The notes under the pieces are model-generated. The model made no database searches, was not told where the DNA came from, and was given only the letters and a program-made list of their open reading frames with translations. Positions 5,411 to 60,739 of a stretch of DNA of 64,000 nt are shown here, one piece after another. The DNA is from Bolinopsis microptera (lineage: Eukaryota; Ctenophora; Tentaculata; Lobata; Bolinopsidae): the NCBI RefSeq assembly GCF_026151205.1, contig NC_087078.1, forward strand, positions 9,006,675-9,070,674, given 5' to 3'. Within the stretch, counting starts at the first letter, position 1. Each line of letters starts with the position of its first letter. The position numbers and the translations under genes are program-made.

Positions 5411-7630
5411 GGTATGTCAAAACAGGGCGCCCTTTCGAACACTACTCGGGCTAGAATCAGTGCAATTCGGACACTACTATGCAACTGAACCATGCAAAAC
5501 TATATAAGTACACCTATGCTGGCAAGGCAATAGGTCAGACTGCCAGTCCTTATGACATGTAATCCCATTTTTCTCAATCTCCTTTGCATGCTATTTGCTG
5601 AAATCGCGATCAAATCACAGTATTTATTAACCGGGTTTTATAATAAATTACATTATTTCAATCTTAATCATGACCTATCTGGATCATGATTAATAATCCG
5701 ATTTTTAATAAGTTAATCGGGCGACGCCAGCACCCTTAATTCATCGGAAAAACATTTCCCAATTTTAAATTTCATCTTCCGGGATTAATGATCATAATGT
5801 CCATTCCCCATATCATTTAACAGTAAGTTTTCCAGGTAAGTGGGATCAAAGTGAAGAGAACAGCAGCTTACCACGTACACAGGAAGAATACTAACTGAAA
5901 GTGAAAGTGAAAGTGATGCTAATGTACTGTGTCTGTGTCTGTTAGTGTCGCTGATCAGTAAATTTATAATTACAGGTAAATATTGAGTACAGAAACCGAT
6001 AATGGTAAATTCCTATTTTAACCATGAATTAGCATTAAATGTCACAAGTGTGTAGGAAGAGGGGTGGGCAGGGGGGCCGGGGGGACCGCCCCCCCCCCCC
6101 CCATAAAATCTGGAAAATGGGCCAAAAGGGGCCTGCAACTTTTTGGCCTCATTTGGCCTATCCTGTCTACTGTCTAGTGTCTAACTGCAGTCTAACTGCA
6201 CGATGTCGATAGTTGCCGATTTATAAAATTCAGAAAACATTGCTAGTTACTCTTCTGTCCCGTGTTCAGTATCTTCAAGTAAATTATCAGGATACAATCC
6301 AGCTGTGAGCTGGCATGAACCAAAAATCTGATAATTTATATTACATATTCCGATATTACGTGTCAGGATTCATCAGAAGTTCAGGAACCTAGCGATAATA
6401 AAATTCAGATAACATTGCTGGTTACTCTTCTATGCCGTGTTCAGTATTTTCAATAGTAATACCAGAATTTTTCGATGAACCAGAAATCTGTTAATTTATA
6501 TTACATATTCTGATATTAGAGGTATGTCAAAACAGGGCGCCCTTTCGAACACTACTCGGGCTAGAATCAGTGCAATTCGGACACTACTATGCAACTGAAC
6601 CATGCAAAACTATATAAGTACACCTATGCTGGCAAGGCAATAGGTCAGACTGCCAGTCCTTATGACATGTAATCCCATTTTTCTCAATCTCCTTTGCATG
6701 CTATTTGCTGAAATCGCGATCAAATCACAGTATTTATTAACCGGGTTTTATAATAAATTACATTATTTCAATCTTAATCATGACCTATCTGGATCATGAT
6801 TAATAATCCGATTTTTAATAAGTTAATCGGGCGACGCCAGCACCCTTAATTCATCGGAAAAACATTTCCCAATTTTAAATTTCATCTTCCGGGATTAATG
6901 ATCATAATGTCCATTCCCCATATCATTTAACAGTAAGTTTTCCAGGTAAGTGGGATCAAAGTGAAGAGAACAGCAGCTTACCACGTACACAGGAAGAATA
7001 CTAACTGAAAGTGAAAGTGAAAGTGATGCTAATGTACTGTGTCTGTGTCTGTTAGTGTCGCTGATCAGTAAATTTATAATTACAGGTAAATATTGAGTAC
7101 AGAAACCGATAATGGTAAATTCCTATTTTAACCATGAATTAGCATTAAATGTCACAAGTGTGTAGGAAGAGGGGTGGGCAGGGGGGCCGGGGGGACCGCC
7201 CCCCCCCCCCCCCCCATAAAATCTGGAAAATGGGCCAAAAGGGGCCTGCAACTTTTTGGCCTCATTTGGCCTATCCTGTCTAGTGTCTAGTGTCTAACTG
7301 CAGTCTAACTGCACGATGTCGATAGTTGCCGATTTATAAAATTCAGAAAACATTGCTAGTTACTCTTCTGTCCCGTGTTCAGTATCTTCAAGTAAATTAT
7401 CAGGATACAATCCAGCTGTGAGCTGGCATGAACCAAAAATCTGATAATTTATATTACATATTCCGATATTACGTGTCAGGATTCATCAGAAGTTCAGGAA
7501 CCTAGCGATTATAAAATTCAGATAACATTGCTGGTTACTCTTCTATGCCGTGTTCAGTATTTTCAATAGTAATACCAGAATTTTTCGATGAACCAGAAAT
7601 CTGTTAATTTATATTACATATTCTGATATT
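5411..7630. repeat. Two tandem 1.11-kb units, including segment copy B and the start of copy C
   Basis: The sequence beginning GGTATGTCAAAACAGGGCGC at 5411 recurs at 6521, a period of 1110 bp. Each unit has about 243 bp of unique head (5411-5653, 6521-6763), then the same 850-bp segment that starts copy A at 164. Unit 1 ends abruptly after CATATTCTGATATTA (about 6518) and re-enters the head. Unit 2 runs on into the full-length copy C. Confidence 0.9.
5511..5518 (+). promoter_or_regulatory. TATA-like box in duplicated head (second copy at 6611-6618)
   Basis: TATATAAG stands in a GC-richer context in both tandem heads, before a purine-rich start region (GGCAAGGCAATAGG). In copy C it lies about 1.9 kb upstream of the sulfotransferase relic, so it may be the remnant promoter of that gene. 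The evidence is weak. Confidence 0.25.
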
Positions 7631-20800: not shown

Positions 20801-23800
20801 AACAACAACAAGGTAACTAATTATAACCAGAGGTGATACAGTAAATAACAACAACAAGGTAACTAATTATAACCAGAGGTAATACAGTAAATAACAACAA
20901 CTAGGTAACTAAGTATAACCAGAGGTGATACAGTAAATAACAACAGCAAGGTAACTAAGTATAACCAGAGCTAGAGGTAATACAGTAAATAACAACAACA
21001 AGGTAACTAATTATAACCAGAGGTAATACAGTAAATAACAACAACAAGGTAACTAATTATAACCAGAGCTAGAGGTAATACAGTAAATAACAACAACAAG
21101 GTAACTAAGTATAACCAGAGGTAATACAGTAAATAACAACAACAAGGTAACTAATTATAACCAGAGGTAATACAGTAAATAACAACAACAAGGTAACTAA
21201 TTATAACCAGAGCTAGAGGTAATACAGTAAATAACAACAACAAGGTAACTAAGTATAACCAGAGGTAATACAGTAAATAACAACAGTAAGGTAACTAATT
21301 ATAACCAGAGGTGATACAGTAAATAACAACAGCGAGGTAACTAATTATAACCAGAGGTAATACAGTAAATAACAACAGCAAGGTAACTAAGTATAACCAG
21401 AGGTAATACAGTAAATAACAACAACAAGGTAACTAAGTATAACCAGAGGTAATACAGTAAATAACAACAGCAAGGTAACTAATTATATAACCAGAGCTAG
21501 AGGTAATACAGTAAATAACAACAACAAGGTAACTAATTATAACCAGAGGTAATACAGTAAATAACAACAACAAGGTAACTAATTATAACCAGAGGTAATA
21601 CAGTAAATAACAACAACAAGGTAACTAATTATAACCAGAGCTAGAGGTAATACAGTAAATAACAACAACAAGGTAACTAATTATAACCAGAGGTAATACA
21701 GTAAATAACAACAACAAGGTAACTAATTATAACCAGAGGTGATACAGTAAATAACAACAACAAGGTAACTAATTATATAACCAGAGGTAATACAGTAAAT
21801 AACAACAACAAGGTAACTAAGTATAACCAGAGCTAGAGGTAATACAGTAAATAACAACAACAAGGTAACTAATTATATAACCAGAGGTAATACAGTAAAT
21901 AACAACAACAAGGTAACTAATTATAACCAGAGGTGATACAGTAAATAACAACAACAAGGTAACTAATTATATAACCATAGGTAATACAGTAAATAACAAC
22001 AACAAGGTAACTAATTATAACCAGAGGTAATACAGTAAATAACAACAACTAGGTAACTAATTATAACCAGAGGTAATACAGTAAATAACAACAGCAAGGT
22101 AACTAATTATAACCAGAGGTAATACAGTAAATAACAACAACAAGGTAACTAATTATAACCAGAGGTAATACAGTAAATAACAACAGCAAGGTAACTAATT
22201 ATAACCAGAGGTAATACAGTAAATAACAACAACTAGGTAACTAAGTATAACTAGAGGTAATACAGTAAATAACAACAACAAGGTAACTAATTATAACCAG
22301 AGGTAATACAGTAAATAACAACAACAAGGTAACTAATTATATAACCAGAGGTAATACAGTAAATAACAACAGCAAGGTAACTAATTATAACCAGAGGTAA
22401 TACAGTAAATAACAACAACAAGGTAACTAAGTATAACCAGAGGTAATACAGTAAATAACAACAACTAGGTAACTAAGTATAACCAGAGGTGATACAGTAA
22501 ATAACAACAGCAAGGTAACTAATTATAACCAGAGCTAGAGGTAATACAGTAAATAACAACAACAAGGTAACTAAGTATAACCAGAGGTAATACAGTAAAT
22601 AACAACAACAAGGTAACTAAGTATAACCAGAGGTAATACAGTAAATAACAACAACTAGGTAACTAAGTATAACCAGAGGTGATACAGTAAATAACAACAG
22701 CAAGGTAACTAATTATAACCAGAGCTAGAGGTAATACAGTAAATAACAACAACAAGGTAACTAATTATAACCAGAGGTAATACAGTAAATAACAACAACA
22801 AGGTAACTAAGTATAACCAGAGGTAATACAGTAAGTAACAACAACAAGGTAACTAATTATAACCAGAGGTAATACAGTAAATAACAACAACAAGGTAACT
22901 AAGTATAACCAGAGGTAATACAGTAAATAACAACAACAAGGTAACTAATTATATAACCAGAGGTAATACAGTAAATAACAACAACTAGGTAACTAATTAT
23001 AACCAGAGGTAATACAGTAAATAACAACAACAAGGTAACTAATTATATAACCATAGGTAATACAGTAAATAACAACAACAAGGTAACTAATTATAACCAG
23101 AGGTAATACAGTAAATAACAACAACAAGGTAACTAATTATATAACCAGAGGTAATACAGTAAATAACAACAACTAGGTAACTAATTATAACCAGAGGTAA
23201 TACAGTAAATAACAACAACAAGGTAACTAATTATAACCAGAGCTAGAGGTAATACAGTAAATAACAACAACAAGGTAACTAATTATAACCAGAGGTAATA
23301 CAGTAAATAACAACAACAAGGTAACTAAGTATAACCAGAGGTAATACAGTAAGTAACAACAACAAGGTAACTAATTATATAACCATAGGTAATACAGTAA
23401 ATAACAACAACAAGGTAACTAATTATATAACCAGAGGTAATACAGTAAATAACAACAACTAGGTAACTAAGTATAACCAGAGGTAATACAGTAAATAACA
23501 ACAGCAAGGTAACTAAGTATAACCAGAGGTAATACAGTAAATAACAACAACAAGGTAACTAATTATAACCAGAGGTAATACAGTAAATAACAACAACAAG
23601 GTAACTAATTATAACCAGAGGTAATACAGTAAATAACAACAACAAGGTAACTAAGTATAACCAGAGGTAAGACAGTAAATAACAACAACAAGGTAACTAA
23701 TTATAACCAGAGCTAGAGGTTATACAGTAAATAACAACAACAAGGTAACTAATTATAACCAGAGGTAATACAGTAAATAACAACAGCAAGGTAACTAATT

Positions 23801-26800
23801 ATAACCAGAGGTGATACAGTAAATAACAACAACAAGGTAACTAAGTATAACCAGAGGTAATACAGTAAATAACAACAGCAAGGTAACTAAGTATAACCAG
23901 AGGTAATACAGTAAGTAACAACAACAAGGTAACTAATTATATAACCATAGGTAATACAGTAAATAACAACAACAAGGTAACTAATTATATAACCAGAGGT
24001 AATACAGTAAATAACAACAACTAGGTAACTAAGTATAACTAGAGGTAATACAGTAAATAACAACAGCAAGGTAACTAATTATAACCAGAGGTGATACAGT
24101 AAATAACAACAACAAGGTAACTAAGTATAACCAGAGGTAATACAGTAAATAACAACAGCAAGGTAACTAAGTATAACCAGAGGTAATACAGTAAGTAACA
24201 ACAACAAGGTAACTAATTATATAACCATAGGTAATACAGTAAATAACAACAACTAGGTAACTAAGTATAACTAGAGGTAATACAGTAAATAACAACAACT
24301 AGGTAACTAAGTATAACTAGAGGTAATACAGTAAATAACAACAACAAGGTAACTAATTATAACCAGAGGTGATACAGTAAATAACAACAACAAGGTAACT
24401 AAGTATAACCAGAGCTAGAGGTAATACAGTAAATAACAACAGCAAGGTAACTAAGTATAACTAGAGGTAATACAGTAAATAACAACAACTAGGTAACTAA
24501 GTATAACTAGAGGTAATACAGTAAATAACAACAACAAGGTAACTAAGTATAACCAGAGGTAATACAGTAAGTAACAACAACAAGGTAACTAATTATATAA
24601 CCATAGGTAATACAGTAAATAACAACAACAAGGTAACTAATTATATAACCAGAGGTAATACAGTAAATAACAACAACTAGGTAACTAAGTATAACTAGAG
24701 GTAATACAGTAAATAACAACAGCAAGGTAACTAATTATAACCAGAGGTGATACAGTAAATAACAACAACAAGGTAACTAAGTATAACCAGAGGTAATACA
24801 GTAAATAACAACAGCAAGGTAACTAAGTATAACCAGAGCTAGAGGTAATACAGTAAGTAACAACAACAAGGTAACTAATTATATAACCATAGGTAATACA
24901 GTAAATAACAACAACAAGGTAACTAATTATATAACCAGAGGTAATACAGTAAATAACAACAACTAGGTAACTAAGTATAACCTAGAGGTAATACAGTAAA
25001 TAACAACAACTAGGTAACTAAGTATAACCAGAGGTAATACAGTAAATAACAACAACAAGGTAACTAATTAAATAACCAGAGGTGATACAGTAAATAACAA
25101 CAACAAGGTAACTAAGTATAACCAGAGGGTAATACAGTAAATAACAACAGCAAGGTAACTAAGTATAACCAGAGGTAATACAGTAAATAACAACAGCAAG
25201 GTAACTAATTATAACCAGAGGTAATACAGTAAATAACAACAACTAGGTAACTAAGTATAACCAGAGCTAGAGGTGATACAGTAAATAACAACAACAAGGT
25301 AACTAATTATATAACCAGAGGTAATACAGTAAATAACAACAACAAGGTAACTAATTATAACCAGAGGTGATACAGTAAATTACAACAACAAGGTAACTAA
25401 TTATAACCAGAGGTAATACAGTAAATAACAACAACTAGGTAACTAATTATATAACCAGAGGTAATACAGTAAATAACAACAACTAGGTAACTAAGTATAA
25501 CCAGAGGTGATACAGTAAATAACAACAACAAGGTAACTAAGTATAACCAGAGCTAGAGGTAATACAGTAAATAACAACAACAAGGTAACTAATTATAACC
25601 AGAGGTAATACAGTAAATAACAACAACAAGGTAACTAATTATAACCAGAGCTAGAGGTAATACAGTAAATAACAACAACAAGGTAACTAATTATAACCAG
25701 AGGTAATACAGTAAATAACAACAGCAAGGTAACTAATTATAACCAGAGGTGATACAGTAAATAACAACAACAAGGTAACTAAGTATAACCAGAGGTAATA
25801 CAGTAAATAACAACAGCAAGGTAACTAATTATAACCAGAGGTAATACAGTAAATAACAACAACAAGGTAACTAAGTATAACCAGAGGTAATACAGTAAAT
25901 AACAACAGCAAGGTAACTAATTATAACCAGAGGTGATACAGTAAATAACAACAACAAGGTAACTAAGTATAACCAGATGCAGAGGTAATACAGTAAATAA
26001 CAACAGCAAGGTAACTAATTATAACCAGAGGTAATACAGTAAATAACAACAACAAGGTAACTAAGTATAACCAGAGGTAATACAGTAAATAACAACAGCA
26101 AGGTAACTAATTATAACCAGAGGTAATACAGTAAATAACAACAACAAGGTAACTAATTATATAACCAGAGGTAATACAGTAAATAACAACAACAAGGTAA
26201 CTAAGTATAACCAGAGGTAATACAGTAAATAACAACAACAAGGTAACTAAGTATAACCAGAGGTAATACAGTAAATAACAACAGCAAGGTAACTAATTAT
26301 AACCAGAGGTAATACAGTAAATAACAACAACAAGGTAACTAATTATATAACCAGAGGTAATACAGTAAATAACAACAACAAGGTAACTAATTATATAACC
26401 AGAGGTAATACAGTAAATAACAACAACAAGGTAACTAATTATAACCAGAGGTAATACAGTAAATAACAACAACAAGGTAACTAATTATAACCAGAGGTAA
26501 TACAGTAAATAACAACAGCAAGGTAACTAATTATAACCAGAGGTAATACAGTAAATAACAACAACAAGGTAATTTAGTATAACCAGAGGTAAGACAGTAA
26601 GTAACATAACAAATAAACAAACCAAGTTTGTGTTGACAGAGGTTGGAGAAGAGTTGTCTGAGAGCCTGAACTTCAGAGTACCTCAGAATCTCACAGTCAG
26701 GGTGAGGGGGAGGGTTTGATAATCTGATCAGATCTACTTCCGGAACCAGCACGTTACTTTCAACTTCACTCAACAGGAACCTGGAAAAGAGAACACGTTA

Positions 26801-34200: not shown

Positions 34201-36794
34201 TCCTTGCTGGAATGAGAAGATACCTTCACCAGACCCCTGTGACTGACGCACTCTTTCCCGAACAGAGCGGACACCTGTGCAGAGCTCAGGGAACTGAAAA
34301 CTAAGTTCTGTCGGAAGTTCTTGCCGTGTCCTTCCAGTGCCCAATGTTTTACCCTGAAACACAGTATGTTATTAATAGTGTACAATTGGGGGGGGGGGGT
34401 GGCAGGTTAAAACTACAGAAGAAAAGACTAAATTAAGCAAAATGAGTAGAACAGCAGGCTGATTAGAAGCGAGCTTACCTAGAAAAGTCAGTATATTTAG
34501 GTGAAGAAGGCTGCAGATTAAGATGTTCTAGACAAAGGAGAAGGTGCTCCCAGTTCTGCATTAGAAACACGTCTGACATGAACAGAGTCAGAACTTCGAT
34601 GGAGGACAGAAAATCAAAATCACGTTCTTTATCGCCTGAAATGGGGTCTTCTGTTAGAAATATATAGCCTCCTACGGAATTATCTATTATTATCTGTTTT
34701 ATTATTCCACTAGATACCCCAATTGTAATTGAAATTAAGTTGAGATAAAAGTAAGAAGTAAGAACATTTTACCTGGAGCCCCCACAACACTCCGTAACCC
34801 GAGAGGAGATGCCACAATCAAATCAGAATTGTAGAAATCTGTGTATAGCTTGACACTGTTCTTAGCGAAAGCAACTCCCAGAGTGAAGAAATCATCGTTG
34901 TTACCAAGGAAAGTCTTCTGATAAGAGAGAGCTTTTGAGAGATTTGGTTTCTCGGTATCTCCAGGCCCATACTCCTCTTCAAACCTCTTCTTATTGCTGA
35001 CCTGCAATGTTCATTGATCATAAAGTCGTATCGCTCAAATTGAACGTAAGGATTTTGATCATTGAAAAAAACTGAATACGCCCCACCCTCACGACGAACA
35101 TGATGACACGCGCGTCGCGTCAGTCAATGCGGCGCGCGCAGTGGCACCAGGATAACAAATGTTATTGATATACAAGAAGATCCTCGCGCGTTACAAACAT
35201 GATATATAAGCTGTCACTTTCCAGGAGGACTTTCGTCAAAACTGTATCAAATTGAGAGATCAATTTTCTTGTGTTTGAACTGATATCTCAAATTTGGCAC
35301 ATAGAAATTTGCCCAAACTTACACAGATTATTAGTCTAATAGCTATCTTACTTTCTTAAAACCCTTCAGAAAATCGTACAATAGGATCTCTAGATAAATG
35401 CCTTGGTACCAAATATTGTACTTTGGTACAGTTTGGTACAGAAAGTCCAACTTCAGCTGTTTTTAGTCGCATGAGGCCAATTATTTCAACTATTGTAGCA
35501 AATGCAAATTATAAATATTTGCTAGCAAAGAATCAGGGACAAAGCTTTAAAAACTATGCGAGTATCTCGCATCATTAGAAATGTCAAAATTTCAATGTTC
35601 GCAAGCGCATAATCAGCAAAAAGATAGCTAGGCCGACTAGTAACACAGCTCAGCATAACGTGAGAAACCATACAAAATGGTAAAAATTCAACAATTATAT
35701 AGAATTGACGTCTAATAAAACCATCAAAAAAGTTAACTCACCTGCTTTTTAGAGCCAGTCAAGGCTATCTTCAGGACCTGATGAATAAATTTATGTGCCA
35801 CATTTCTGAAAGGAAACAGCAGCAATATCTTCGGTCTGGTAAATCCTTGATCCTTCATTGCATCCACTAACCCATCTGGGTCGCTCCTCAATTTAGCGTT
35901 GTTTTTCAAAACAGTTTTCCTAGTCTGCAAAGCATGATTAACAGTATGTAATGCTAGTAACTTGAGAAGCTCAGCTTGATTCTCAAACGTACTGTCAGTG
36001 AATAAAAAATCTTGTCCGGTTGCTATATAAGGGAATATTGCAGCGGATACCGGCTTCATAACACCTTTAGTATGGATCTGTTTGGTTGTGCTCGTCCATT
36101 GTTTCACTAAGGCGGGATCTAATCCCAAGTTCGATAAATCAGCTGGGGTTTTCATTTCTGAAATATTGCCCGAAATATTAGTCGACTTCTGAACTCTGTA
36201 GAGAGTATGAGGAACATTCGTCATGGACACATCTTTTGTGTATTTTAATGCAACATCAGATCCAAAGTTTAACTTGAGATAATCACTTGGACTCTCAGCT
36301 TCATCTGACTCTGATTCATCATCACTTTCATCCTCATTCTGCTCATCAGAATCATTACTAGCCCCACTTTCTGACTCTCCCTCTTCACCCTCACCCTCAC
36401 CCTCATCCTCACCCTCTTTATCACTCTCCTCTCCCTCTGAACTCCCACCTAATAACTCTTCAAAATATGCCCTCGGTCGTTTCTTCAGCGATCCTATCAG
36501 TTCTGAGTAATGGTCTTGTTGATTGATAACGGGCTGATCTTCTTTCGTATTTTGAGTATTTTCATCTGGTGCAAATTGATCTTCACGTTTTCGTTTCTTG
36601 TCACTTTTGAGATCTTGTCCACGGTAAGCTTTACCATGCTTGTTCAGCAACTTATTCGTCCGTTTGAAGGAGTGCCCACCTCTTCCTCCACCTCTGCCAC
36701 CTCTGCCACCTCTCCCGCCTCTGCCACCTCTTCCACCTCTTCCACCTCTTCCCCCTCTGCCACCTCTGATCTCATTCATTGCTACTTTTGACAA
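31267..36794 (-). CDS. UTP25: UTP25 small-subunit processome component (DEF family), 8 exons
   Basis: A nucleolar protein needed for 18S pre-rRNA processing, with a degenerate DEAD-box helicase fold. Minus-strand exons: 35742-36794, 34773-35001, 34479-34635, 34171-34353, 33076-33240, 32721-32870, 32433-32555, 31267-31363. All phases fit; the total is 2157 nt (718 aa; human about 756). Landmarks: ILLLFPFRNVAHKFIHQVL, NKKRFEEEYG, FFTLGVAFAKNSVKLYTDFY, ASPLGLRSVVG, DVFLMQNWEH, IPSYYDYVR, IRNYFKKE, TTERFFFFKRY, VVGDEQCKQL. The DEAD position reads MSDV, in line with loss of ATPase function in the family. The N-terminus has about ten GGR units followed by a lysine-rich and a long Asp/Glu/Ser-rich region. 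The RGG block is unusual for this family. The start overlaps the end of N6AMT1 by 23 bp; a second in-frame Met is five codons later. Confidence 0.93.
31364..31692. repeat. 33-bp minisatellite, about 10 units, ending on the UTP25 last-exon acceptor
   Basis: On the minus strand each unit reads CAGTACTCTATTTACATTGT then AACAACCCCAGAT. It carries the same CCCCAG that serves as the 3' splice site of the last UTP25 exon (31267-31363). Variants are A/G in TGATC/TGGTC and GGGG/GGGGG. The period is a multiple of three. Confidence 0.9.
32282..32357 (-). repeat. tRNA-derived SINE head in a UTP25 intron
   Basis: On the minus strand TAGCGTAGGTAATGG fits a Pol III A box. About 35 bp later GTTGCGAGTTCAATCCC fits a B box/T arm. 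The acceptor stem and anticodon arm are imperfect (CACTGCGCTACTATCCCAG), so it is more likely a SINE than a working tRNA gene. The body would extend toward lower coordinates, where I could not define an end. Confidence 0.55.
33590..34150 (-). mobile_element. Internally deleted LINE reverse transcriptase fragment in a UTP25 intron
   Basis: Broken minus-strand frames spell LINE reverse-transcriptase blocks in order: GYKSDLLNYRPASLTCMFCK, then ISKHQHGFVKGKSC, then VDFSKAFDSVPH. After a jump come IRGDLIEAFKVISGLADYG and a final LP-x-DV-like region. The catalytic middle is missing and there are several frameshifts. The motifs resemble CR1/Jockey/L2-type elements. The fragment has the same orientation as UTP25 and ends about 20 bp from the exon 34171-34353. 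Confidence 0.85.
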
Positions 36795-37413
36795 ACTTGA
36801 TCACCCACAACTTTTCAATACCAGCTTTTCTCTCTCCAACAATAGAACCAGACAGCTGAAACGATTTTGATATTTCACAGATTTCCCCTGGTCGATTCTG
36901 GCGGATTCCCAACAAGAAAAAGATTCCAGTTGGTGATAAAAACTTGGCCGCAGTAGGTAGAAACTTGTCAATAACCTCTCTACCGTCGATACCACCAGCC
37001 CAAGATGCCTCAATACCGGAACTAGAAACCTCTTCTGATTCAGTAGGAACGTACGGAGGGTTGAAGATCAGCAGATCTACTTTCCCAAACAATCCTGATA
37101 ATCCTGCTCCGAGATCACTGCACACTACTTCTACTTCTTTCTTGTTTACAAGTGAGGTTTCTTTGCTAGCTTCAGCGGCTTGCTTGTTGATATCAACAGC
37201 TATACAGTAAGTTTCAGGGCAGATTCCCTGAACAAATGTGGATATAACACCAGAACCTGAACCTATCTCAAGAGAAATGAGAGGGTGGTTGTTATCTCCT
37301 GCTGTGTAGAACTCTTCCAAACAGTCTAGGAGAAGGAATGTGTCCTCACTAGGTGGGTATACACTGGTGAACTCACTTCTCTTCAAATGAGGGGTTAGTG
37401 GTGTTGGAAACAT
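36772..37413 (-). CDS. N6AMT1: N6AMT1/HEMK2 glutamine and lysine methyltransferase, single exon
   Basis: With TRMT112 this enzyme methylates the Gln of the GGQ motif of release factor eRF1; histone lysine has also been reported as a substrate. The 213-aa frame has the family's usual length (human 214). SAM-binding motif I is LEIGSGSGVIST and the catalytic motif is FNPPYVPT, with the family signature GIEASWAGGIDGREVIDKFLP after it. It ends in LWVIKFVKSSNE like its relatives, so the stop at 36772-36774 is the true end. That end lies inside the first 23 bp of UTP25 on the same strand. No introns are present. An AATACAG 8 bp before the ATG could be a weak splice acceptor. Confidence 0.93.
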   Translation of the reverse strand: MFPTPLTPHLKRSEFTSVYPPSEDTFLLLDCLEEFYTAGDNNHPLISLEIGSGSGVISTFVQGICPETYCIAVDINKQAAEASKETSLVNKKEVEVVCSDLGAGLSGLFGKVDLLIFNPPYVPTESEEVSSSGIEASWAGGIDGREVIDKFLPTAAKFLSPTGIFFLLGIRQNRPGEICEISKSFQLSGSIVGERKAGIEKLWVIKFVKSSNE

Positions 37414-37734
37414 TAACCATCCTGTATTTTTATATCGGTTAGCTCAGTGATAATTATATATATCCCAATAATTATACTTTTTGGTCAGTCATTTCGAATC
37501 ATCAGCACATAAAATAACAATCTCGTTGAAGCAGTAATTTGGATCATTAGATTAAAACGAATTAAACACTGGATAGTTACTGTTGAATAGTCAGAAATTT
37601 ATTAAATATGTTATCAAACTTAAGAAAGTTACCAAATATGAAAACTGTACCAGAAAATTAATAGTTTACTTCAACTTCAACACATACAGTTTAAAATGTT
37701 AAAATAGAATATTAAGAAATTTAAAAACTTACAG

Positions 37735-47814: not shown

Positions 47815-48062
47815 TAATCGTAACCGCGGCAACACTACCATGTAAGGTAATTTAACCGCGGCAACACTACCATATAAGGTAATGTAACCGTGGCAACACT
47901 ACCATATAAGGTAATGTAACCGTAAAACACTACCAATTACCATATAAGGTAATGTAACCGCGTCAACACTACCATATAAGGTAATGTAACCGTGGCAACA
48001 CTACCATATAAGGTAATGTAACTGTGGCAACACTACCATATAAGGTAATGTAACCGTCAATA
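47815..48062. repeat. GGCAACACTACCATATAAGG repeat, about 7 units
   Basis: Units of about 35 bp: GTAACCGCGGCAACACTACC then ATATAAGGTAAT. A second block of about four units lies at 48830-48960. Single or partial relatives occur at 29465-29505, 49235-49280, 58290-58330 and 58690-58866. The core is an imperfect palindrome. Confidence 0.9.
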
Positions 48063-48550: not shown

Positions 48551-48829
48551 CTCATTTATCATAATTTGAAAACCCACTCTTATTAATGTGTTCTAATCGC
48601 TTCAGGTCATATTTAAAATTATCAACAATCAAATAAGATCGCACACCTAAAATAAAGTTTGTTGTTTGGATCTGGGTTGTGCCGGCAGTCTTGTGTAAAT
48701 TTAACTGAATGTCAAACTTAAAATAAGATATTTGTACGTATCTGATATCTACCAATACAAACTGAAACCCTAACCTTAGTACCCATCTCACATATTATCC
48801 CAGTTTTTGTCCATATAAAGTATGTACTA

Positions 48830-48960
48830 TGTAACCGTGGCAACATTACCATATAAGGTAATGTAACTGTGGCAACACTACCATATAAGGTAACGTAACT
48901 GTGGCAACACTACCATATAAGGTAATGTAACCGCGGCAACACTACCATATAAGGTAATGT
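48830..48960. repeat. Second block of the GGCAACACTACCATATAAGG repeat
   Basis: Four units of the family seen at 47815-48062, ending 18 bp before the stop codon of the SRCR receptor gene. It probably lies in or next to that gene's 3' UTR. Confidence 0.9.
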
Positions 48961-48977: not shown

Positions 48978-51900
48978 TCAGAACCTCTGGTCGGGTTCCT
49001 CCAGGAAATGATAGATGTTCTCCTCACTCCCCGGCATTGGGTTACTTGTCCCTCCTCCGCAGTAATCCCTCTCCTCTGCTGGTGCTGCTACACTGTCTGC
49101 TCTCATGTCCTGCCAGTCACTCTCTGATCCTCCTGAAATAAAAAAACAACGTGAAACTTTGTTGTTATATCACACAAGATTCTACTTTCTATCTTTGTAC
49201 TATTTGATTATTGAATTTTAAGTATCTACCATGATGACATATAAGGTAATATCACCATGGTATCACTATCATATAAGGTCATACGTATTCCCTCTGAAAC
49301 GAACCTGTAAGAGGCGCTGTAGAATAGGACATCCTCGGAACTTTCTTCTTCTTCTGTTTGCGTGACTTTGCGATGAGTAGAACTATTAGAGTTATACAGA
49401 CCACTGCCAGTACAACTATAATCCCGGTGAATATGGCACTGAGACTGCTCCTAGGACTTGTTCCCCTTATACCCTTAGCAGAACCTTTGTAATGCTGCGT
49501 CTCTATATCATACTGCTGCACACAGAATACCCCATTACCTATCTGGTCGGAATCATTGCAGGTCTCACAGGTGTAGTTAGTCCAGTACTCTCCGTTCTGA
49601 CAGTGGTTACACTGAGAGGCTCCTGCTGTAGACACTGTGTAGGCAGGACACTTGGTACATTCTACTGAGGAACCCTCACTGAAGTGGTTAGCTGGGCAGG
49701 CAGTGCACGTCTTGGTTACAGGATCCCACTTACTACCAGCACTACAACTACAGGCAGTGTGTCCGTGTACTGGCAATGTGTGAGCAGGACACTCAACACA
49801 CACTTTACCAGCATTGTCAAACCAAGCAGTACCAGTGCACATCACACACGCTCTGTTGCTCCAGTGCGTTCCCTGATCACAGCTACATTCCGCAGAGCCA
49901 GCAGGAGTTGTGGAGGTGGAGGGACACACTTCACAAGACACCATCTCTCCTTGTTTGTAGGTGTCCTGTAAGCAGGGTGAACACTGGCCATCTTCCCACT
50001 TCCAGACTGCACCGTCAGGACACAGACACGAGGCTTTATCTTGTGCTGCTCCTAGCGGACAAACCAGGCATTCTGTTCCAAGTCCATTACTTGCTGTTCC
50101 CTCTTCACAGTCCACACATTGTGCTCCATCCCACACCTTACCACCATCACAAGAGCAGCCAGCAGAGCCGGAGAGAGAAGTAGATCCCTCAGGACAGAAA
50201 AGACACGTTCCAGCCTCATTGTTCTTATAGCTTCCTGAGGAGCAGGGTATACAGGACCCATCACCTGAACTGTTCCACTCCCAGACCGTTCCATCAGGGC
50301 AAGTACACTTTTCTTCAGTAGAGGAGGATCCCAGGGGACAGATGGAGCAGCTGAGAGAACCCTCTAAGCTGACAGACCCTGCTTCACAACTGTTACACTC
50401 TTCTCCGCTCCAGTGCTCTCCTGGAGGACAGCTACAATGTTCAGCTCCTGCTGCAGATGTAGAACCTAGGGGACATGTTGAGCAGGAGGACATGTTCCCT
50501 GTTTTATAGGTGCTGGCAAGACAAGGCCTGCAGGACCCTGTGTTCTGATCTACCCACTCCCAAACCAGACCATCATCACACAGACAACTAGATCCTGCTC
50601 CTCCGTTCTCACAGGTCACACAGACTGTTGCTCCAGCGTTGCTTGCAAATCCTGGGCTGCATTCCACACATTCCTGGTTACTCCAGTAGGTCCCTGCTTC
50701 ACAGGAGCAGGAACTGGACCCTGTTAGAGCTGTGGATCCTGTAGGACACAGCTCACAATGCAGCATCTCTCCTTCTATAAATTTATCCTGAGGACATGGC
50801 ACACAGGCTCCCAAAAGGGCGTGGTTCCACAGCCAGTACAGTCCGTCAGGACACGAACAGGACCTATCACTGTCTACAGGTTGTGAACCTTCAGGACACT
50901 GGTGACAGGTTCCCTCCACTCCTGCGTAGTCATCAGGACACCTCTTACACCTGCCGTTACTCCACATAGTACCAGGACGACAGTTACACTTATCAGAACC
51001 GGGCCGGGAGGTGGAGATACCCGGACAACTTGAACAGGACGTGGAACCGGAGACTGAGCTGTAGAAGTTAGCAGGACACTCCTCACAGGTTGAGTTTATC
51101 AGGTAGTGGCCAGCCGGACAGGTTACATAACACTCTGAAGTGGGACACTCCAGGATAGGTGGACAGGTCTGTGGAGGATCTGTTTCAACCTGCGGGGGAT
51201 CTGTTTCAGTCTGTGGAGGATCCGTTTCAGTCTGTGGAGGATCTGTTTCAGTCTGTGGAGGATCTGTTTCAACCTGCGGGGGATCTGTTTCAGTCTGTCG
51301 GGGATCTGTTTCAGTCTGTGGGGAATCTGTTTCAATCTGTGGAGGTTCTGTTTCAACCTGCGGGGGATCTGTTTCAGTCTGTGGGGAACTTGTTTCAATC
51401 TGTGGAGGTTCTGTTTCAACCTGTAGCTGTGGTGGTTCTGTGTCAGCAGGATCTGTTGCAAACTCTGGCACTTCAGTTACGTGAGCTGGTGTATTTGTTA
51501 CAGTCGCCGAGCAAGTCAGGTGAACATCCTCATTGTGCTGACAGTTGTGAACTGTGCTGTGTGTGCAACTAGACCAGCTCTCACTGCTACAGTCCACATT
51601 ATCCAACCCTATCTCCAGCCCGGTCTGAATATCGAACAGGCTCCCAGCAATCCAGCCCAAGGATCCAGGACGACCCATCTGACGACAGATAGCGTTAGCA
51701 GCGTTCTCGTCAAAGCTATCGTCACACACTGTGTTTCCGTTGTAAAGGAGCAGTCCTTGTTCTTCTCCGAGTATATCGTTACTGTCAGCGTCTATCAGGG
51801 AGAAGGGAGAGTGTCCTGCTTCTGAGGGAGGGTACCTGTGTTACTAATACTGATAGTAACGATCATTCTGATTCACAATTTCAGGTCTTTCCGGGTTTTT

Positions 51901-54900
51901 TTTCGTTTGTTTACAATCGTTAATATTCAAGTTGTTTTAGGGAAATTTCAGAATTGTCTTAAAACTTTATTAAAATGAATGATACGATAAACAACTTGGT
52001 TGCAGTCAGTGCCATTTGCCAATAAAACAACACTAAATACGGGTAACTCAGTGTGCCACCTTTTGGTTCCTCTGAGTTGCAGCTGAGGAACACGTCCTCA
52101 ATATGCCCACAGTTGTAACTAACCTGTTGGTTCCTCTGAGTTGCAGCTGAGGAACACGTCCTCAATATGCCCACAGTTGTAACTAACCTGTTGGTTCCTC
52201 TGAGTTGCAGGTGAGGAACACGTCCTCAATATGCCCACAGTTGTAACTAACCTGTTGGTTCCTCTGAGTTGCAGCTGAGGAACACGTCCTCAATATGCCC
52301 ACAGTTGTAACTAACCTGTTGGTTCCTCTGAGTTGCAGCTGAGGAACACGTCCTCAATATGCCCACAGTTGTAACTAACCTGTTGGTTCCTCTGAGTTGC
52401 AGCTGAGGAACACGTCCTCAATATGCCCACAGTTGTAACTAACCTGTTGGTTCCTCTGAGTTGCAGCTGAGGAACACGTCCTCAATATGCCCACAGTTGT
52501 AACTAACCTGTTGGTTCCTCTGAGTTGCAGCTGAGGAACACGTCCTCAATATGCCCACAGTTGTAACTAACCTGTTGGTTCCTCTGAGTTGCAGCTGAGG
52601 AACACGTCCTCAATATGCCCGCAGTTGTAACTAACCTGTTGGTTCCTCTGAGTTGCAGCTGAGGAACACGTCCTCAATATGCCCACAGTTGTAACTAACC
52701 TGTTGGTTCCTCTGAGTTGCAGCTGAGGAACACGTCCTCAATATGCCCACAGTTGTAACTAACCTGTTGGTTCCTCTGAGTTGCAGCTGAGGAACACGTC
52801 CTCAATATGCCCACAGTTGTAACTAACCTGTTGGTTTCCTCTGAGTTGCAGCTGAGGAACACGTCCTCAATATGCCCACAGTTGTAACTAACCTGTTGGT
52901 TCCTCTGAGTTGCAGCTGAGGAACACGTCCTCAATATGCCCACAGTTGTAACTAACCTGTTGGTTCCTCTGAGTTGCAGCTGAGGAACACGTCCTCAATA
53001 TGCCCACAGTTGTAACTAACCTGTTGGTTCCTCTGAGTTGCAGCTGAGGAACACGTCCTCAATATGCCCACAGTTGTAACTAACCTGTTGGTTCCTCTGA
53101 GTTGCAGCTGAGGAACACGTCCTCAATATGCCCACAGTTGTAACTAACCTGTTGGTTCCTCTGAGTTGCAGCTGAGGAACACGTCCTCAATATGCCCACA
53201 GTTGTAACTAACCTGTTGGTTCCTCTGAGTTGCAGCTGAGGAACACGTCCTCAATATGCCCACAGTTGTAACTAACCTGTTGGTTCCTCTGAGTTGCAGC
53301 TGAGGAACACGTCCTCAATATGCCCACAGTTGTAACTAACCTGTTGGTTCCTCTGAGTTGCAGCTGAGGAACACGTCCTCAATATGCCCACAGTTGTAAC
53401 TAACCTGTTGGTTCCTCTGAGTTGCAGCTGAGGAACACGTCCTCAATATGCCCACAGTTGTAACTAACCTGTTGGTTCCTCTGAGTTGCAGCTGAGGAAC
53501 ACGTCCTCAATATGCCCACAGTTGTAACTAACCTGTTGGTTCCTCTGAGTTGCAGCTGAGGAACACGTCCTCAATATGCCCACAGTTGTAACTAACCTGT
53601 TGGTTCCTCTGAGTTGCAGCTGAGGAACACGTCCTCAATATGCCCACAGTTGTAACTAACCTGTTGGTTCCTCTGAGTTGCAGCTGAGGAACACGTCCTC
53701 AATATGCCCACAGTTGTAACTAACCTGTTGGTTCCTCTGAGTTGCAGCTGAGGAACACGTCCTCAATATGCCCACAGTTGTAACTAACCTGTTGGTTCCT
53801 CTGAGTTGCAGCTGAGGAACACGTCCTCAATATGCCCACAGTTGTAACTAACCTGTTGGTTCCTCTGAGTTGCAGCTGAGGAACACGTCCTCAATATGCC
53901 CACAGTTGTAACTAACCTGTTGGTTCCTCTGAGTTGCAGCTGAGGAACACGTCCTCAATATGCCCACAGTTGTAACTAACCTGTTGGTTCCTCTGAGTTG
54001 CAGCTGAGGAACACGTCCTCAATATGCCCACAGTTGTAACTAACCTGTTGGTTCCTCTGAGTTGCAGCTGAGGAACACGTCCTCAATATGCCCACAGTTG
54101 TAACTAACCTGTTGGTTCCTCTGAGTTGCAGCTGAGGAACACGTCCTCAATATGCCCACAGTTGTAACTAACCTGTTGGTTCCTCTGAGTTGCAGCTGAG
54201 GAACACGTCCTCAATATGCCCACAGTTGTAACTAACCTGTTGGTTCCTCTGAGTTGCAGCTGAGGAACACGTCCTCAATATGCCCACAGTTGTAACTAAC
54301 CTGTTGGTTCCTCTGAGTTGCAGCTGAGGAACACGTCCTCAATATGCCCACAGTTGTAACTAACCTGTTGGTTCCTCTGAGTTGCAGCTGAGGAACACGT
54401 CCTCAATATGCCCACAGTTGTAACTAACCTGTTGGTTCCTCTGAGTTGCAGCTGAGGAACACGTCCTCAATATGCCCACAGTTGTAACTAACCTGTTGGT
54501 TCCTCTGAGTTGCAGCTGAGGAACACGTCCTCAATATGCCCACAGTTGTAACTAACCTGTTGGTTCCTCTGAGTTGCAGCTGAGGAACACGTCCTCAATA
54601 TGCCCACAGTTGTAACTAACCTGTTGGTTCCTCTGAGTTGCAGCTGAGGAACACGTCCTCAATATGCCCACAGTTGTAACTAACCTGTTGGTTCCTCTGA
54701 GTTGCAGCTGAGGAACACGTCCTCAATATGCCCACAGTTGTAACTAACCTGTTGGTTCCTCTGAGTTGCAGCTGAGGAACACGTCCTCAATATGCCCACA
54801 GTTGTAACTAACCTGTTGGTTCCTCTGAGTTGCAGCTGAGGAACACGTCCTCAATATGCCCACAGTTGTAACTAACCTGTTGGTTCCTCTGAGTTGCAGC

Positions 54901-57900
54901 TGAGGAACACGTCCTCAATATGCCCACAGTTGTAACTAACCTGTTGGTTCCTCTGAGTTGCAGCTGAGGAACACGTCCTCAATATGCCCACAGTTGTAAC
55001 TAACCTGTTGGTTCCTCTGAGTTGCAGCTGAGGAACACGTCCTCAATATGCCCACAGTTGTAACTAACCTGTTGGTTCCTCTGAGTTGCAGCTGAGGAAC
55101 ACGTCCTCAATATGCCCACAGTTGTAACTAACCTGTTGGTTCCTCTGAGTTGCAGCTGAGGAACACGTCCTCAATATGCCCACAGTTGTAACTAACCTGT
55201 TGGTTCCTCTGAGTTGCAGCTGAGGAACACGTCCTCAATATGCCCACAGTTGTAACTAACCTGTTGGTTCCTCTGAGTTGCAGCTGAGGAACACGTCCTC
55301 AATATGCCCACAGTTGTAACTAACCTGTTGGTTCCTCTGAGTTGCAGCTGAGGAACACGTCCTCAATATGCCCACAGTTGTAACTAACCTGTTGGTTCCT
55401 CTGAGTTGCAGCTGAGGAACACGTCCTCAATATGCCCACAGTTGTAACTAACCTGTTGGTTCCTCTGAGTTGCAGCTGAGGAACACGTCCTCAATATGCC
55501 CACAGTTGTAACTAACCTGTTGGTTCCTCTGAGTTGCAGCTGAGGAACACGTCCTCAATATGCCCACAGTTGTAACTAACCTGTTGGTTCCTCTGAGTTG
55601 CAGCTGAGGAACACGTCCTCAATATGCCCACAGTTGTAACTAACCTGTTGGTTCCTCTGAGTTGCAGCTGAGGAACACGTCCTCAATATGCCCACAGTTG
55701 TAACTAACCTGTTGGTTCCTCTGAGTTGCAGCTGAGGAACACGTCCTCAATATGCCCACAGTTGTAACTAACCTGTTGGTTCCTCTGAGTTGCAGCTGAG
55801 GAACACGTCCTCAATATGCCCACAGTTGTAACTAACCTGTTGGTTCCTCTGAGTTGCAGCTGAGGAACACGTCCTCAATATGCCCACAGTTGTAACTAAC
55901 CTGTTGGTTCCTCTGAGTTGCAGCTGAGGAACACGTCCTCAATATGCCCACAGTTGTAACTAACCTGTTGGTTCCTCTGAGTTGCAGCTGAGGAACACGT
56001 CCTCAATATGCCCACAGTTGTAACTAACCTGTTGGTTCCTCTGAGTTGCAGCTGAGGAACACGTCCTCAATATGCCCACAGTTGTAACTAACCTGTTGGT
56101 TCCTCTGAGTTGCAGCTGAGGAACACGTCCTCAATATGCCCACAGTTGTAACTAACCTGTTGGTTCCTCTGAGTTGCAGCTGAGGAACACGTCCTCAATA
56201 TGCCCACAGTTGTAACTAACCTGTTGGTTCCTCTGAGTTGCAGCTGAGGAACACGTCCTCAATATGCCCACAGTTGTAACTAACCTGTTGGTTCCTCTGA
56301 GTTGCAGCTGAGGAACACGTCCTCAATATGCCCACAGTTGTAACTAACCTGTTGGTTCCTCTGAGTTGCAGCTGAGGAACACGTCCTCAATATGCCCACA
56401 GTTGTAACTAACCTGTTGGTTCCTCTGAGTTGCAGCTGAGGAACACGTCCTCAATATGCCCACAGTTGTAACTAACCTGTTGGTTCCTCTGAGTTGCAGC
56501 TGAGGAACACGTCCTCAATATGCCCACAGTTGTAACTAACCTGTTGGTTCCTCTGAGTTGCAGCTGAGGAACACGTCCTCAATATGCCCACAGTTGTAAC
56601 TAACCTGTTGGTTCCTCTGAGTTGCAGCTGAGGAACACGTCCTCAATATGCCCACAGTTGTAACTAACCTGTTGGTTCCTCTGAGTTGCAGCTGAGGAAC
56701 ACGTCCTCAATATGCCCACAGTTGTAACTAACCTGTTGGTTCCTCTGAGTTGCAGCTGAGGAACACGTCCTCAATATGCCCACAGTTGTAACTAACCTGT
56801 TGGTTCCTCTGAGTTGCAGCTGAGGAACACGTCCTCAATATGCCCACAGTTGTAACTAACCTGTTGGTTCCTCTGAGTTGCAGCTGAGGAACACGTCCTC
56901 AATATGCCCACAGTTGTAACTAACCTGTTGGTTCCTCTGAGTTGCAGCTGAGGAACACGTCCTCAATATGCCCGCAGTTGTAACTAACCTGTTGGTTCCT
57001 CTGAGTTGCAGCTGAGGAACACGTCCTCAATATGCCCGCAGTTGTAACTAACCTGTTGGTTCCTCTGAGTTGCAGCTGAGGAACACGTCCTCAATATGCC
57101 CACAGTTGTAACTAACCTGTTGGTTCCTCTGAGTTGCAGCTGAGGAACACGTCCTCAATATGCCCACAGTTGTAACTAACCTGTTGGTTCCTCTGAGTTG
57201 CAGCTGAGGAACACGTCCTCAATATGCCCACAGTTGTAACTAACCTGTTGGTTCCTCTGAGTTGCAGCTGAGGAACACGTCCTCAATATGCCCACAGTTG
57301 TAACTAACCTGTTGGTTCCTCTGAGTTGCAGCTGAGGAACACGTCCTCAATATGCCCACAGTTGTAACTAACCTGTTGGTTCCTCTGAGTTGCAGCTGAG
57401 GAACACGTCCTCAATATGCCCACAGTTGTAACTAACCTGTTGGTACCTCTGAGTTGCAGCTGAGGAACACGTCCCCAATATGCCCACAGTTGTAACTAAC
57501 CTGTTGGTTCCTCTGAGTTGCAGCTGAGGAACACGTCCTCAATATGCCCGCAGTTGTAACTAACCTGTTGGTTCCTCTGAGTTGCAGCTGAGGAACACGT
57601 CCTCAATATGCCCACAGTTGTAACTAACCTGTTGGTTCCTCTGAGTTGCAGCTGAGGAACACGTCCTCAATATGCCCACAGTTGTAACTAACCTGTTGGT
57701 TCCTCTGAGTTGCAGCTGAGGAACACGTCCTCAATATGCCCACAGTTGTAACTAACCTGTTGGTTCCTCTGAGTTGCAGCTGAGGAACACGTCCTCAATA
57801 TGCCCGCAGTTGTTCTCCTCTGAGAAACTGCAGCTCCCCCAGTGTGGGTCACTACAGTCCACATTGTCCAGCGTTATCTCGTAGCTATCCTGGATTTCTA

Positions 57901-60739
57901 TACGCGTCCCTCTACTCGACCACCTGGGAGTGTATTTACGTAATATATTAATTTAGTTATGATTTTATCACAATATTTTGATACTATTATCTCAAAGGAA
58001 ACAAAAGAAAAAGTCTCATTCTCCATGAATTTTACAATTATATTCAATTAAATTTCGTTCTGATAGATGATGCAGCAGTAAAGTATCAATAACACAAGAC
58101 CACATTATTACCTGTTCATGTCAGTGTATCCCAAGTTTCTGCAGATAGCAGTAGCAGCAGTAGCGTCAAAACTATCGTCACAAACAGTTCCACCTTTATA
58201 AAGGAGTAAACCTAGCTCTTCTCCTTCAATAACGTTCCCTTCTGAGTCAACTAGTCTGAACAGGGGCTCTTCTGTATCTGTGAGGGGTTACCAGGGTGAC
58301 ACTACCATATACGGTTATGTTGCTATGGTAATACTAAACTATTTCCCTTAAATAGCATAATGATAAACATAAAGGTACATTTAACATTACATTTTAATTT
58401 ATCAAATTACCTGTTGGTACAGTAGGTACTGTAGGTACTGCGGGAATATCAGAAGATTGCTGCTCTATTTCGCCATCACAACTCAGAAACACATCTTCTC
58501 TGTTAATTTAGTAAATTTAATAAAACACAAATAAAGTTTCATTTACGTTACCCTTGAAATCAGACCGTGAGCTGTAATATTAAAAAACGTTGTCCGATCA
58601 CTATGAGACTATGTAGCACGGTCACAATAAGATGTTATAGGGTTATCGAGAAATGACCCTATATTATAGTAGTGTTACTATGGTAACTCACTACAAGGAC
58701 ACCATAGTAACGTTACCTTATATGGTGCTATTAGTTATTACCTCCATAGTAACGTTACCTTATATGGTGCTATTAGTTATTACCTCCATAGTAACGTTAC
58801 TTTATATGGTGCTATTAGTTATTACCTCCATAGTAACGTTACCTTATATGGTGCTATTAGTTATTACCTGTGCATACAGTTATGAGACTCAGAATAACTA
58901 CAACTCTCCCATTCTCCACGTCTGCACTCCACGTTGTCAAGTTTTATCTCGTAATCTGTCTGTATGTCAAAGCTATCTGCTGGTGTCCATCTGGTTGCAC
59001 CTGTGTACCTGTGGGTTTAGATGGTAACAAGCAAGGAACAAGCAAGGAACAAGCACGTAATAAACAAGTAATAAACAATTAACAAACCAGTTTATTATAC
59101 AAATTTTCTCTATTAATAAATTTATAAATTAACCTCCAAACTTTATTTGGTAGTTTGGTTTCTTGTACAATCACAAATATTACAGATTAGTTGTATAAAA
59201 GTAGTGTTTACCCGATTTTGCGACATATAGCGTTAGCAGCATTGTTATCAAAGTTATCGTCACACACGGTACCACCATTATAAAGGAGTAAACCTAGCTC
59301 CTCCCCTCGGATAATTTCACCAGCTGAATCTACCAGTGTGAATCTGGGGGCTTCTGAGAGATCAGTCTGTTATTAGGGGGAGGGGGCTTCTGAGGCTAAA
59401 AATGGCTCCATAACATTTTGGTGACAATAAAATTGAATAGTCGTAGCAGATAAAAGATGACAGATACGAGAATAGTGTTGAATCCGGTAAATACCTTTAC
59501 AAGTAAGAAAGATGTCCTCAGAATGTCCACAGTTGTGGGACTCCACGTAACTGCAACTATCCCAAGACCCACTGTCATCACAGATGACGTCATCAAGTAC
59601 TATCTCGTATTGCTCCTGTATAGCCCAGGTCACGTGAGAGTTCCAGGTCTGTGCTCTGTCATATCTGAGGGGAGGGACGTGAAACAGATGAGGGACGTGA
59701 AGCAGATGAGGGACGTGAAACAGATTAGGGATGTGAAACATATTAGGGATGTGAAACAGATTAGGGATGTGAAAGAGATTAGAGATGTGAAACAGATTAG
59801 GGACGTGAAACAGAAGAGGGACGTGAAGCACAGGAGGGACGTGAAACAGATGAGGGACGTGAAACAGATGAGGAACGTGAAGCAGATTAGGGACGTGAAA
59901 CAGATGAGGGACGTGAAACAGATAAGGGACGTGAAACAGGAGGGACGTGAAGCAGATTAGGGACGTGAAGCAGATTAGGGACGTGAAACAGATGAGGGAC
60001 GTGAAACAAATTAGGGATGTGAAACAGATTAGGGATGTGAAACAGATTAGGGATGTGAAACAGATTAGGGACGTGAAACAGAAGAGGGACGTGAAGCACA
60101 GGAGGGACGTGAAACAGATGAGGGACGTGAAACAGATGAGGGACGTGAAGCAGATTAGGGACGTGAAACAGATGAGGGACGTGAAACAGATTAGGGACGT
60201 GAAACAGGAGGGACGTGAAACAGATGAGGGATGAGAAATACAGGATAAGAGATGAGGAAGAGTTGATTTGCTCTAAAAGATTTTCTCGACATCGACGTTA
60301 ATTCTGACTAATTCCGCCAGACTAAACAATACAGAATGGAAACTGTTTATAAAATATCAAATAACAAAATAACAAGCACCCCATTTGACGACAGACTGCA
60401 TTGCCCGAGTTCTCATTAAAACTGTCGTCACAAACTGTCCCCCCATTATAAAGGAGTAATCCCTGAGCTTCGCCTACTATCTGCTGTCCCCTTCTGTCGA
60501 CTAGGGTAAACTCTCCTGAAACATGAACAGTGAACACGAACGTTATATTAAAAGTTCGGGACATTTTTATTAATCTGGGAAACATACTCTTAATTAATTT
60601 GTTGGGTTCAAGCAAAAGTCTTTGTTAACTCAAGATGAAAGTCATGGTCACAATTGTACAAATTCCCAACTTTAAACATAAATATAAACTGACCTGAAAC
60701 GGTGGTTGCTGCGATTAAACCAACTAAAATAAATAACAT
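48978..60739 (-). CDS. Type I membrane receptor with four SRCR domains and Cys-rich repeats, 10 exons
   Basis: Minus-strand exons: 60694-60739, 60380-60515, 59495-59664, 59212-59353, 58868-59008, 58411-58499, 58112-58271, 57757-57923, 49305-51821, 48978-49132. Phases agree; 3723 nt, 1240 aa. Order: signal peptide (MLFILVGLIAATTVS); SRCR1 about 16-117; SRCR2 118-220; SRCR3 242-350; SRCR4 351-450, each with the YNGGTVCDDSF-type and NCGH-EDVFLSC-type ends; a TETDPPQ repeat stalk about 456-570; about a dozen CxxCPxGS-type repeats (TNFR/GCC2-GCC3-like) to about 1115; a membrane helix (FTGIIVVLAVVCITLIVLLI) about 1144-1168; KKKK; and a tail with YSTAPL and YHFLEEP. SRCR1-3 are split by introns; SRCR4 is intronless. 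SRCR proteins bind microbial or matrix ligands, so a recognition or adhesion role is inferred. The last intron (GTTCGT donor) could be retained, giving a short alternative tail. Confidence 0.88.
52064..57756. repeat. 64-bp satellite, about 90 units, made from an SRCR exon end and its 5' splice site
   Basis: On the minus strand a unit reads TGTGGGCATATTGAGGACGT then GTTCCTCAGCTGCAACTCAG then AGGAACCAACAG|GTTAGTT and ACAAC. The first part is the 3' end of the SRCR3 exon (NCGHIEDVFLSCNSEEPT) with its donor. The array starts at that exon's donor (57757) and fills almost the whole intron to 52064. Units are nearly identical; rare variants (CCCGCAG, GCAGGTGAG, GGTTTCC, GTCCCC) mark single copies. 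The 64-bp period is not a multiple of three. Exact copy number may be limited by assembly. Confidence 0.97.
58690..58867. repeat. 42-bp repeat, 4 units, starting at an SRCR exon donor
   Basis: Units (CCATAGTAACGTTACCTTAT then ATGGTGCTATTAGTTATTAC, CT) run up to the 5' splice site of the exon 58868-59008. On the minus strand each unit carries the same GTAATAACTAATAG that follows the true exon end. It also contains the CCATATAAGGTAACGTTAC palindromic core. Confidence 0.9.
59670..60236. repeat. 18-bp minisatellite (GGGACGTGAAACAGATGA), about 30 units, abutting an SRCR exon acceptor
   Basis: Begins a few bases upstream (in transcription) of the acceptor of the exon 59495-59664, whose own intron end is CACGTCCCTCCCCTCAG. 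Each unit contributes TTTCACGTCCCTCATC on the minus strand, which resembles that polypyrimidine stretch. Variant order suggests a larger block (about 230 bp) was duplicated. It produces spurious Val-Lys-Gln repeat ORFs. Confidence 0.9.

Follow-up and report, generated by a model that had tools for sequence, protein, structure and literature searches.

How does a cell choose one 5' splice site when an intron offers some 90 matching copies of it? The question is raised by an SRCR receptor gene of the ctenophore Bolinopsis microptera, in which a minisatellite begins inside an exon and fills nearly all of the intron that follows. The gene lies in a 64,000-nucleotide stretch of DNA that was analysed as a whole and is referred to here as the window (G000:C7:9,006,675-9,070,674, with a GC content of 38.0%, in a genome of 264.65 Mb in 232 contigs). 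The genome gave no match to the zf-C4 nuclear-receptor domain, which is in line with a ctenophore, although this search had no positive control. Such a locus is a natural stress test of how one 5' splice site is picked among identical ones.

A hand-made splice model of ten exons gives the receptor gene an intact open frame of 1243 amino acids. The Pfam model PF00530 finds four SRCR stretches in the N-terminal 459 residues (165.2 bits against a cut-off of 26.1), and the signal peptide and transmembrane segment were assigned by eye. The features of the gene and of its array, all on the minus strand, are as follows.
48978..60739: SRCR receptor gene, at C7:9,055,652-9,067,413, 10 exons, 1243 amino acids (hand-made splice model, Pfam)
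60739-60694, 60515-60380, 59664-59495 and 59353-59212: exons 1 to 4 (hand-made splice model)
59008-58868, 58499-58411 and 58277-58112: exons 5 to 7 (hand-made splice model)
57923-57757, 51821-49305 and 49132-48978: exons 8 to 10 (hand-made splice model)
57757..57923: exon 8, which encodes the second half of SRCR domain 3 (splice model, Pfam)
49305..51821: exon 9, with SRCR domain 4, a TETDPPQ-type linker, ELAPOR/ephrin-receptor-like cysteine repeats and the transmembrane segment (splice model, Pfam)
51822..57756: intron 8, 5935 nt (splice model)
52058..57813: tandem array, a mirage-type minisatellite with a 64-bp unit (TRF, unit census, homology into the exon)
57751..57759: first and, by the frame, productive donor, CAG/GTTAGT, with its G at 57756 (unit census, splice model, frame)
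52118..52126: last exact donor, CAG/GTTAGT, with its G at 52123 (unit census, frame reading)
52058..52123: terminal 90th copy, with the degenerate donor AAAAG/GTGGCA (unit census)
58702..58869: donor-flush array of 42 bp x 4 at the start of intron 5 (TRF, frame reading)
The acceptor of intron 8 is likely CCCTCAG/AAGCAGG at 51822/51821, as placed from the open frame. The other eight introns measure 133-715 nt.

TRF describes the array as having a period of 64, 89.9 copies, a 99% match and a score of 11440 (52058-57813), far above chance. It occupies 96% of intron 8, and its start sits within exon 8, whose last 52-57 nt form the first copy. The unit consists of the last 52 nt of exon 8 followed by GTTAGTTACAAC, and homology between exon and unit extends, with a single mismatch, as far as 57 nt before the first donor, so that the unit spans the exon-intron boundary as this is taken from the open-frame splice model. 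A census of the units on the minus strand counts 89 exact CAG/GTTAGT donors, spaced 64 nt apart 87 times and 65 nt once. Among the donor-ending units 81 of 89 are identical; variants are confined to units 4, 5, 12, 13, 77, 81 and 87 and to the exon and terminal copies. Units 14-76 are all the same, giving a homogenised core with divergent edge copies, a contrast that polishing could exaggerate. All 89 matches in the genome fall at this locus, in the one assembly searched, with no second haplotype among them. The original prediction of about 90 tandem copies that join an exon end to its donor, and hence of about 90 equivalent donors, is thus borne out by TRF and by the census. It had placed the array at 52064..57923, and here the array stands and the limits do not, being 52058-57813, with 57923 the start of exon 8; likewise, its statement that every unit carries the donor holds for 89 of the 90 copies and fails for the terminal one.

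An array of this regularity could be a product of assembly, in which case it would be much shorter or absent in the animal. The long stretch of identical units points that way, as does the use of wtdbg2, TGS-Gapcloser and pilon polishing for the published B. microptera assembly, according to the portion of the genome report available to us (PMC10232365). Against this, the same portion puts more than 70x PacBio reads behind the genome (PMC10232365), the window contains no N, unique sequence flanks the array on both sides, variant units occur near both of its ends, and two similar arrays exist elsewhere, one with 27 distinct unit types. We consider an artefact very unlikely; polishing could nonetheless homogenise units, and the copy number and unit identity are accordingly provisional.

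The reading frame sets the first donor apart from all the others. Splicing from donor 1 would give the full 1243-residue product, and in the reading frame GGT TAG follows the first donor, so that each of the later donors (88 of 88, donors 2-89) leads to one identical 353-residue product ending in EEPTG, just as the original prediction of a stop after any donor but the first had it. This product retains three SRCR domains and is without SRCR4, the cysteine repeats and the transmembrane segment. Its stop lies at least 59 nt ahead of the next junction, and under the distance rule for nonsense-mediated decay the truncated mRNA should be open to that pathway. Because the downstream donors share one product, any switch between donors would be two-state as far as the product is concerned.

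The repetition of CAG directly before GTTAGT also allows a lossless route, in which each copy would act as a joined acceptor and donor and the units would be removed stepwise, with the junction regenerated each time. In two joins examined, splicing donor 1 to a later unit end does restore an identical junction. A recursive (ratchet) splice site has a pyrimidine-rich acceptor directly before its donor. That feature is missing from the 64-bp unit, where the 15 nt preceding this CAG are 0.40 pyrimidine, against 0.53-0.87 at the nine acceptors of the gene. Another AG in the unit reaches 0.67 and is possibly a weak inner acceptor. We regard recursive removal as extremely unlikely.

To see whether the array is unique we took 59 other SRCR exon ends from 150 scored matches, by rank and distinct place and irrespective of any repeats they held. 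The sample comprises 40 and 19 ends, in which the donor could not be placed within about five codons of the last cysteine in 9 of 40 and 1 of 19, which brings the effective sample down to about 49. Some gene clusters also contributed more than one end, and such ends are not independent. Exon-spanning arrays were present at two of the 59, one on C11 and one on C4.
L072:530-3882: C11 array, in the region C11:15,338,701-15,343,700, 32 bp x 104.8 copies, 92% match
C4 array: in the region C4:10,395,400-10,398,361, 93 bp x 22 copies, 95% match, with a unit of about 30 exon nt and 63 intron nt
The C11 unit, of which there are about 105 copies, consists of 19 nt from the end of an SRCR exon and 13 intron nt; AG/GT is intact at 100 of the 103 joints between its 104 units, which fall into 27 distinct types. 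The C4 donor, CAA/GTATGA, is weak and was placed from the frame. At both loci donor 1 joins the next exon in frame, with introns of 4164 nt (C11) and 2153 nt (C4), and the later exact donors all lead to stops (99 of 99 and 19 of 19, respectively). The intronic parts differ among the three units, which suggests that the arrays on C7, C11 and C4 arose separately. A further end, L062, holds a single decayed exon-end copy (79% over 76 nt). Two other candidates were rejected as arrays, L052 because it is a coding repeat and L074 because its copy falls on the next SRCR exon (match C11:19009264). Similar SRCR exons spaced about 770-845 bp apart also occur at C2 8.06 Mb, C2 17.77 Mb, C3 20.33 Mb and C5 16.77 Mb; judging by match positions alone, these clusters look like tandem repeats of a whole exon plus intron.

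All three loci bear on the possibility that the last donor is the one normally used. Under such intron definition the gene would in effect be truncated in this individual, and the array would be recent damage. The short lengths of the other eight introns (133-715 nt) are suggestive of intron definition and count against the reading that we favour below, as intron definition would favour the donor nearest the acceptor, at least in the part of the human study available to us (PMC9225289). Use of the last exact donor (52123) would leave a 302-nt intron, akin to the gene's others, and a stop. The last exact donor would likewise leave 190 nt at C4 and 100 nt at C11. At C11, however, this donor belongs to a two-copy block apart from the main array, whose own last donor would leave 836 nt. 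Against this, each of the three genes keeps an open frame beyond the array over the stretch that was read, and the 27 unit types among 104 at C11 indicate that this array has had time to diverge. We therefore find it improbable that the last donor is the usual one. Donor usage at the three loci, where about 20 to 100 matching donors vie for one acceptor, the first alone in frame and the last leaving a more ordinary intron, would tell cross-exon from cross-intron pairing in a non-bilaterian animal.

Human data on competing donors speak to the choice of the first. In the accessible part of one study, exon definition favours the upstream of two donors matched in strength and intron definition favours the downstream donor; five minigenes spliced under exon definition, each with a pair of identical CAG/guaagu donors, used the upstream donor exclusively (PMC9225289). 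The upstream preference is heightened where a short intron precedes the exon and a very long one follows, a class into which exon 8 falls, with its 167 nt, its preceding intron of 188 nt and its very long following intron (PMC9225289). When donor strength was left unmatched, the preference in each of the four intron classes was for the downstream donor, again in the part of the study accessible to us (PMC9225289), and this weighs against first-donor use. By analogy, a long array would itself favour the first donor, whereas the same need not hold for a short array within a short intron. The first donor of exon 8 has the top score among the nine donors of the gene on an ad hoc scale. Local folding gives it no structural privilege over the inner donors: the unpaired probability of its six intronic bases is 0.24 and that of inner donors mostly 0.19-0.32, falling to 0.03-0.08 in a small number of units that are variant or lie at the edge. 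The array RNA is mildly more stable than shuffled sequence (z of -1.7 and -1.9).

Taken with these data, the most probable reading, in which we place good confidence, is that of a giant mirage-type minisatellite that is near-neutral and tolerated through cross-exon choice of the first donor. The sequence and frame are observed, and donor usage and neutrality are inferred. A short segment that straddles the 3' boundary of SRCR exon 8, donor included, would have undergone tandem duplication, and unequal exchange or slippage would then probably have expanded it to about 90 copies within intron 8. A duplication that crosses the donor could be tolerated for as long as the first donor stays in use, since the exon and its donor remain intact and gain or loss of whole units alters only the length of the intron. 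The first donor would probably be picked by pairing of the 167-nt exon with its upstream acceptor, and would probably also be favoured by being transcribed first. The other 88 donors would mostly be ignored, with rare use yielding the truncated 353-residue product with three SRCR domains, from an mRNA that should be subject to nonsense-mediated decay. Recurrence at C11 and C4 without shared intronic sequence supports this account, and first-donor use at exon 8 is suggested by the intact frame and by analogy. Of the mechanisms that the original prediction had offered, strict first-donor choice thus appears the better supported, by the frame, the amphioxus mirages described below and the five human minigenes. 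Its copy-number-dependent switch to truncated or decay-sensitive transcripts found no support. Its proposal of a U1 sponge also found no support; given the abundance of U1, the nascent RNA of a single locus is unlikely to matter.

A survey of arrays with a period of at least 12 in 284 kb of sequence (the window with its flanks, and 200 kb of C1) kept 66, so tandem repeats of such size are abundant, and 11 of the 66 carry at least 0.7 consensus-like donors per copy on one strand. For five of these 11, besides the two in the SRCR gene, the flanks show none that clearly spans a coding exon. As a second control we took the 140 nt downstream of each of 18 protein-kinase match ends. None of the 18 has an exon-spanning array of at least three copies, in a control that is weak since AG/GT lies near the match end in only 8 of 18 and many are not true exon ends. 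At one of them (L110; G000:C10:11364119-11364318, minus strand) a kinase exon end and its donor occur as two copies 39 nt apart, and splicing at the second of these donors would lengthen the product by 13 in-frame residues (ECNLGGGGGGGLG). Two other kinase exons have intronic arrays by the donor, a donor-adjacent one of 61 bp (L109) and one of 18 bp close to the donor (L102). The tendency to donor-linked repeats thus looks genomic, and two of 59 set against the kinase control does not point to a higher rate in SRCR genes. Screening the array edges for coding sequence by codon bias missed even the known case, gave no other, and was abandoned.

No clear sign of selection for or against the decoy donors was seen. 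The 64-bp array has taken about 6-8 mutations, for which the chance of zero donor hits is 0.30-0.40, and with so few mutations it is too young to reveal selection. In the more diverged C11 array the donor sites average 1.8 non-consensus bases among 104 units against 7.1 elsewhere, but a handful of hypervariable sites account for the latter mean, and four further 9-nt windows, three of them overlapping the donor, score lower still. The C11 donor sites are hence neither clearly decayed nor clearly better conserved than typical sites.

These results also bear on a functional switch, in which downstream donors would yield a soluble three-SRCR protein or a decay target at the expense of membrane receptor, with decoy strength set by copy number. 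Its appeal is that the 88 donors after the first converge on a single 353-residue product, that two further SRCR genes share the layout in which all donors but the first lead to stops, and that 12 SRCR genes of the related Mnemiopsis shifted in expression after repeated bacterial exposure, 8 of them upwards, in the part of that study available to us (PMC11797021). Yet chance alone gives stops after nearly any donor read-through, the human two-donor minigenes, as far as that report was available, predict upstream use (PMC9225289), and the low rate of arrays (2 of 59 paralog ends) together with the donor-adjacent repeats at kinase exons is as expected of neutral repeats. We judge such a switch unlikely. 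The broader idea that ctenophore SRCR genes repeatedly grow two-state switch arrays, in which the first donor would give the membrane receptor and every other donor one and the same soluble multi-SRCR fragment, with array length setting the leak and mutating fast in populations, seems to us quite unlikely.

The near-neutral minisatellite has precedents. In the portions of the amphioxus reports available to us, mirages in Adh3, the globins BflGb6 and BflGb9, PGBD5 and troponin C have the same anatomy with reportedly regular splicing, and they show length instability, which at Adh3 is also somatic (PMC3087553, PMC3902484). As in B. microptera, the unit there lies across an exon-intron boundary and its copies carry AG/GT signals. 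The arrays described here differ in belonging to another phylum (Ctenophora), in involving SRCR receptor exons, in making up 96% of the intron at intron 8, and in copy number, at about 90, 105 and 22, where the BflGb6 haplotypes have 6 and 3, as far as those reports go. The array is therefore of a kind already described in amphioxus, far larger than the amphioxus cases compared, with counterparts in two or more related genes elsewhere in the genome, and it extends a little-known amphioxus curiosity to ctenophores in a large and recurrent form. Among the matches listed in a search of open-licence papers, we found no ctenophore case of a donor-spanning array.

Two more familiar classes can be told apart from it. 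In the intron-gain model, new introns arise when an exon segment that bears AGGT is tandemly duplicated in the genome, so that a segment with a splice signal is likewise copied. The B. microptera array instead enlarges an existing intron from the donor side; its unit does not include the acceptor, and no additional intron is seen. Ordinary intronic VNTRs have repeats of similar size, to which the 64-bp unit adds coding exon sequence and a full consensus donor.

The same receptor gene holds other repeats. The intron 5 array repeats GAG/GTAATA and AAG/GTAACG-like donors and has hardly any exon bases in its unit; its core, CCATATAAGGTAA, is also found in arrays at 47815-48056 and 48829-48960. Intron 2 contains an 18-bp array of 31 copies (59672-60231, minus strand) that runs up to the acceptor. 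Its 560 nt lack any AG, and the AG-free zone of this acceptor is thus itself a minisatellite. Within exon 9, an in-frame 21-bp coding repeat of about 12 copies (51168-51424, minus strand) encodes the TETDPPQ-type linker between SRCR4 and the cysteine-rich part.

Elsewhere in the window, a 7-kb array at 19606-26606 (46-bp unit, about 148 copies, 91% match) is rich in GGTAACT/GGTAATA on the plus strand and has no clear exon at its edges. A direct duplication of 2 kb, 99.3% identical, joins 1317-3347 and 7877-9906, and repeats 97.8-99.6% identical occur among 164-1270, 5409-6518 and 6519-7883. A gene for a methyltransferase small domain (36772-37443) and a UTP25-like gene (35733-36800) overlap on the minus strand; the stop of the former lies within ATGAATGA, which contains the likely start of the latter, an arrangement that resembles a dicistronic unit.
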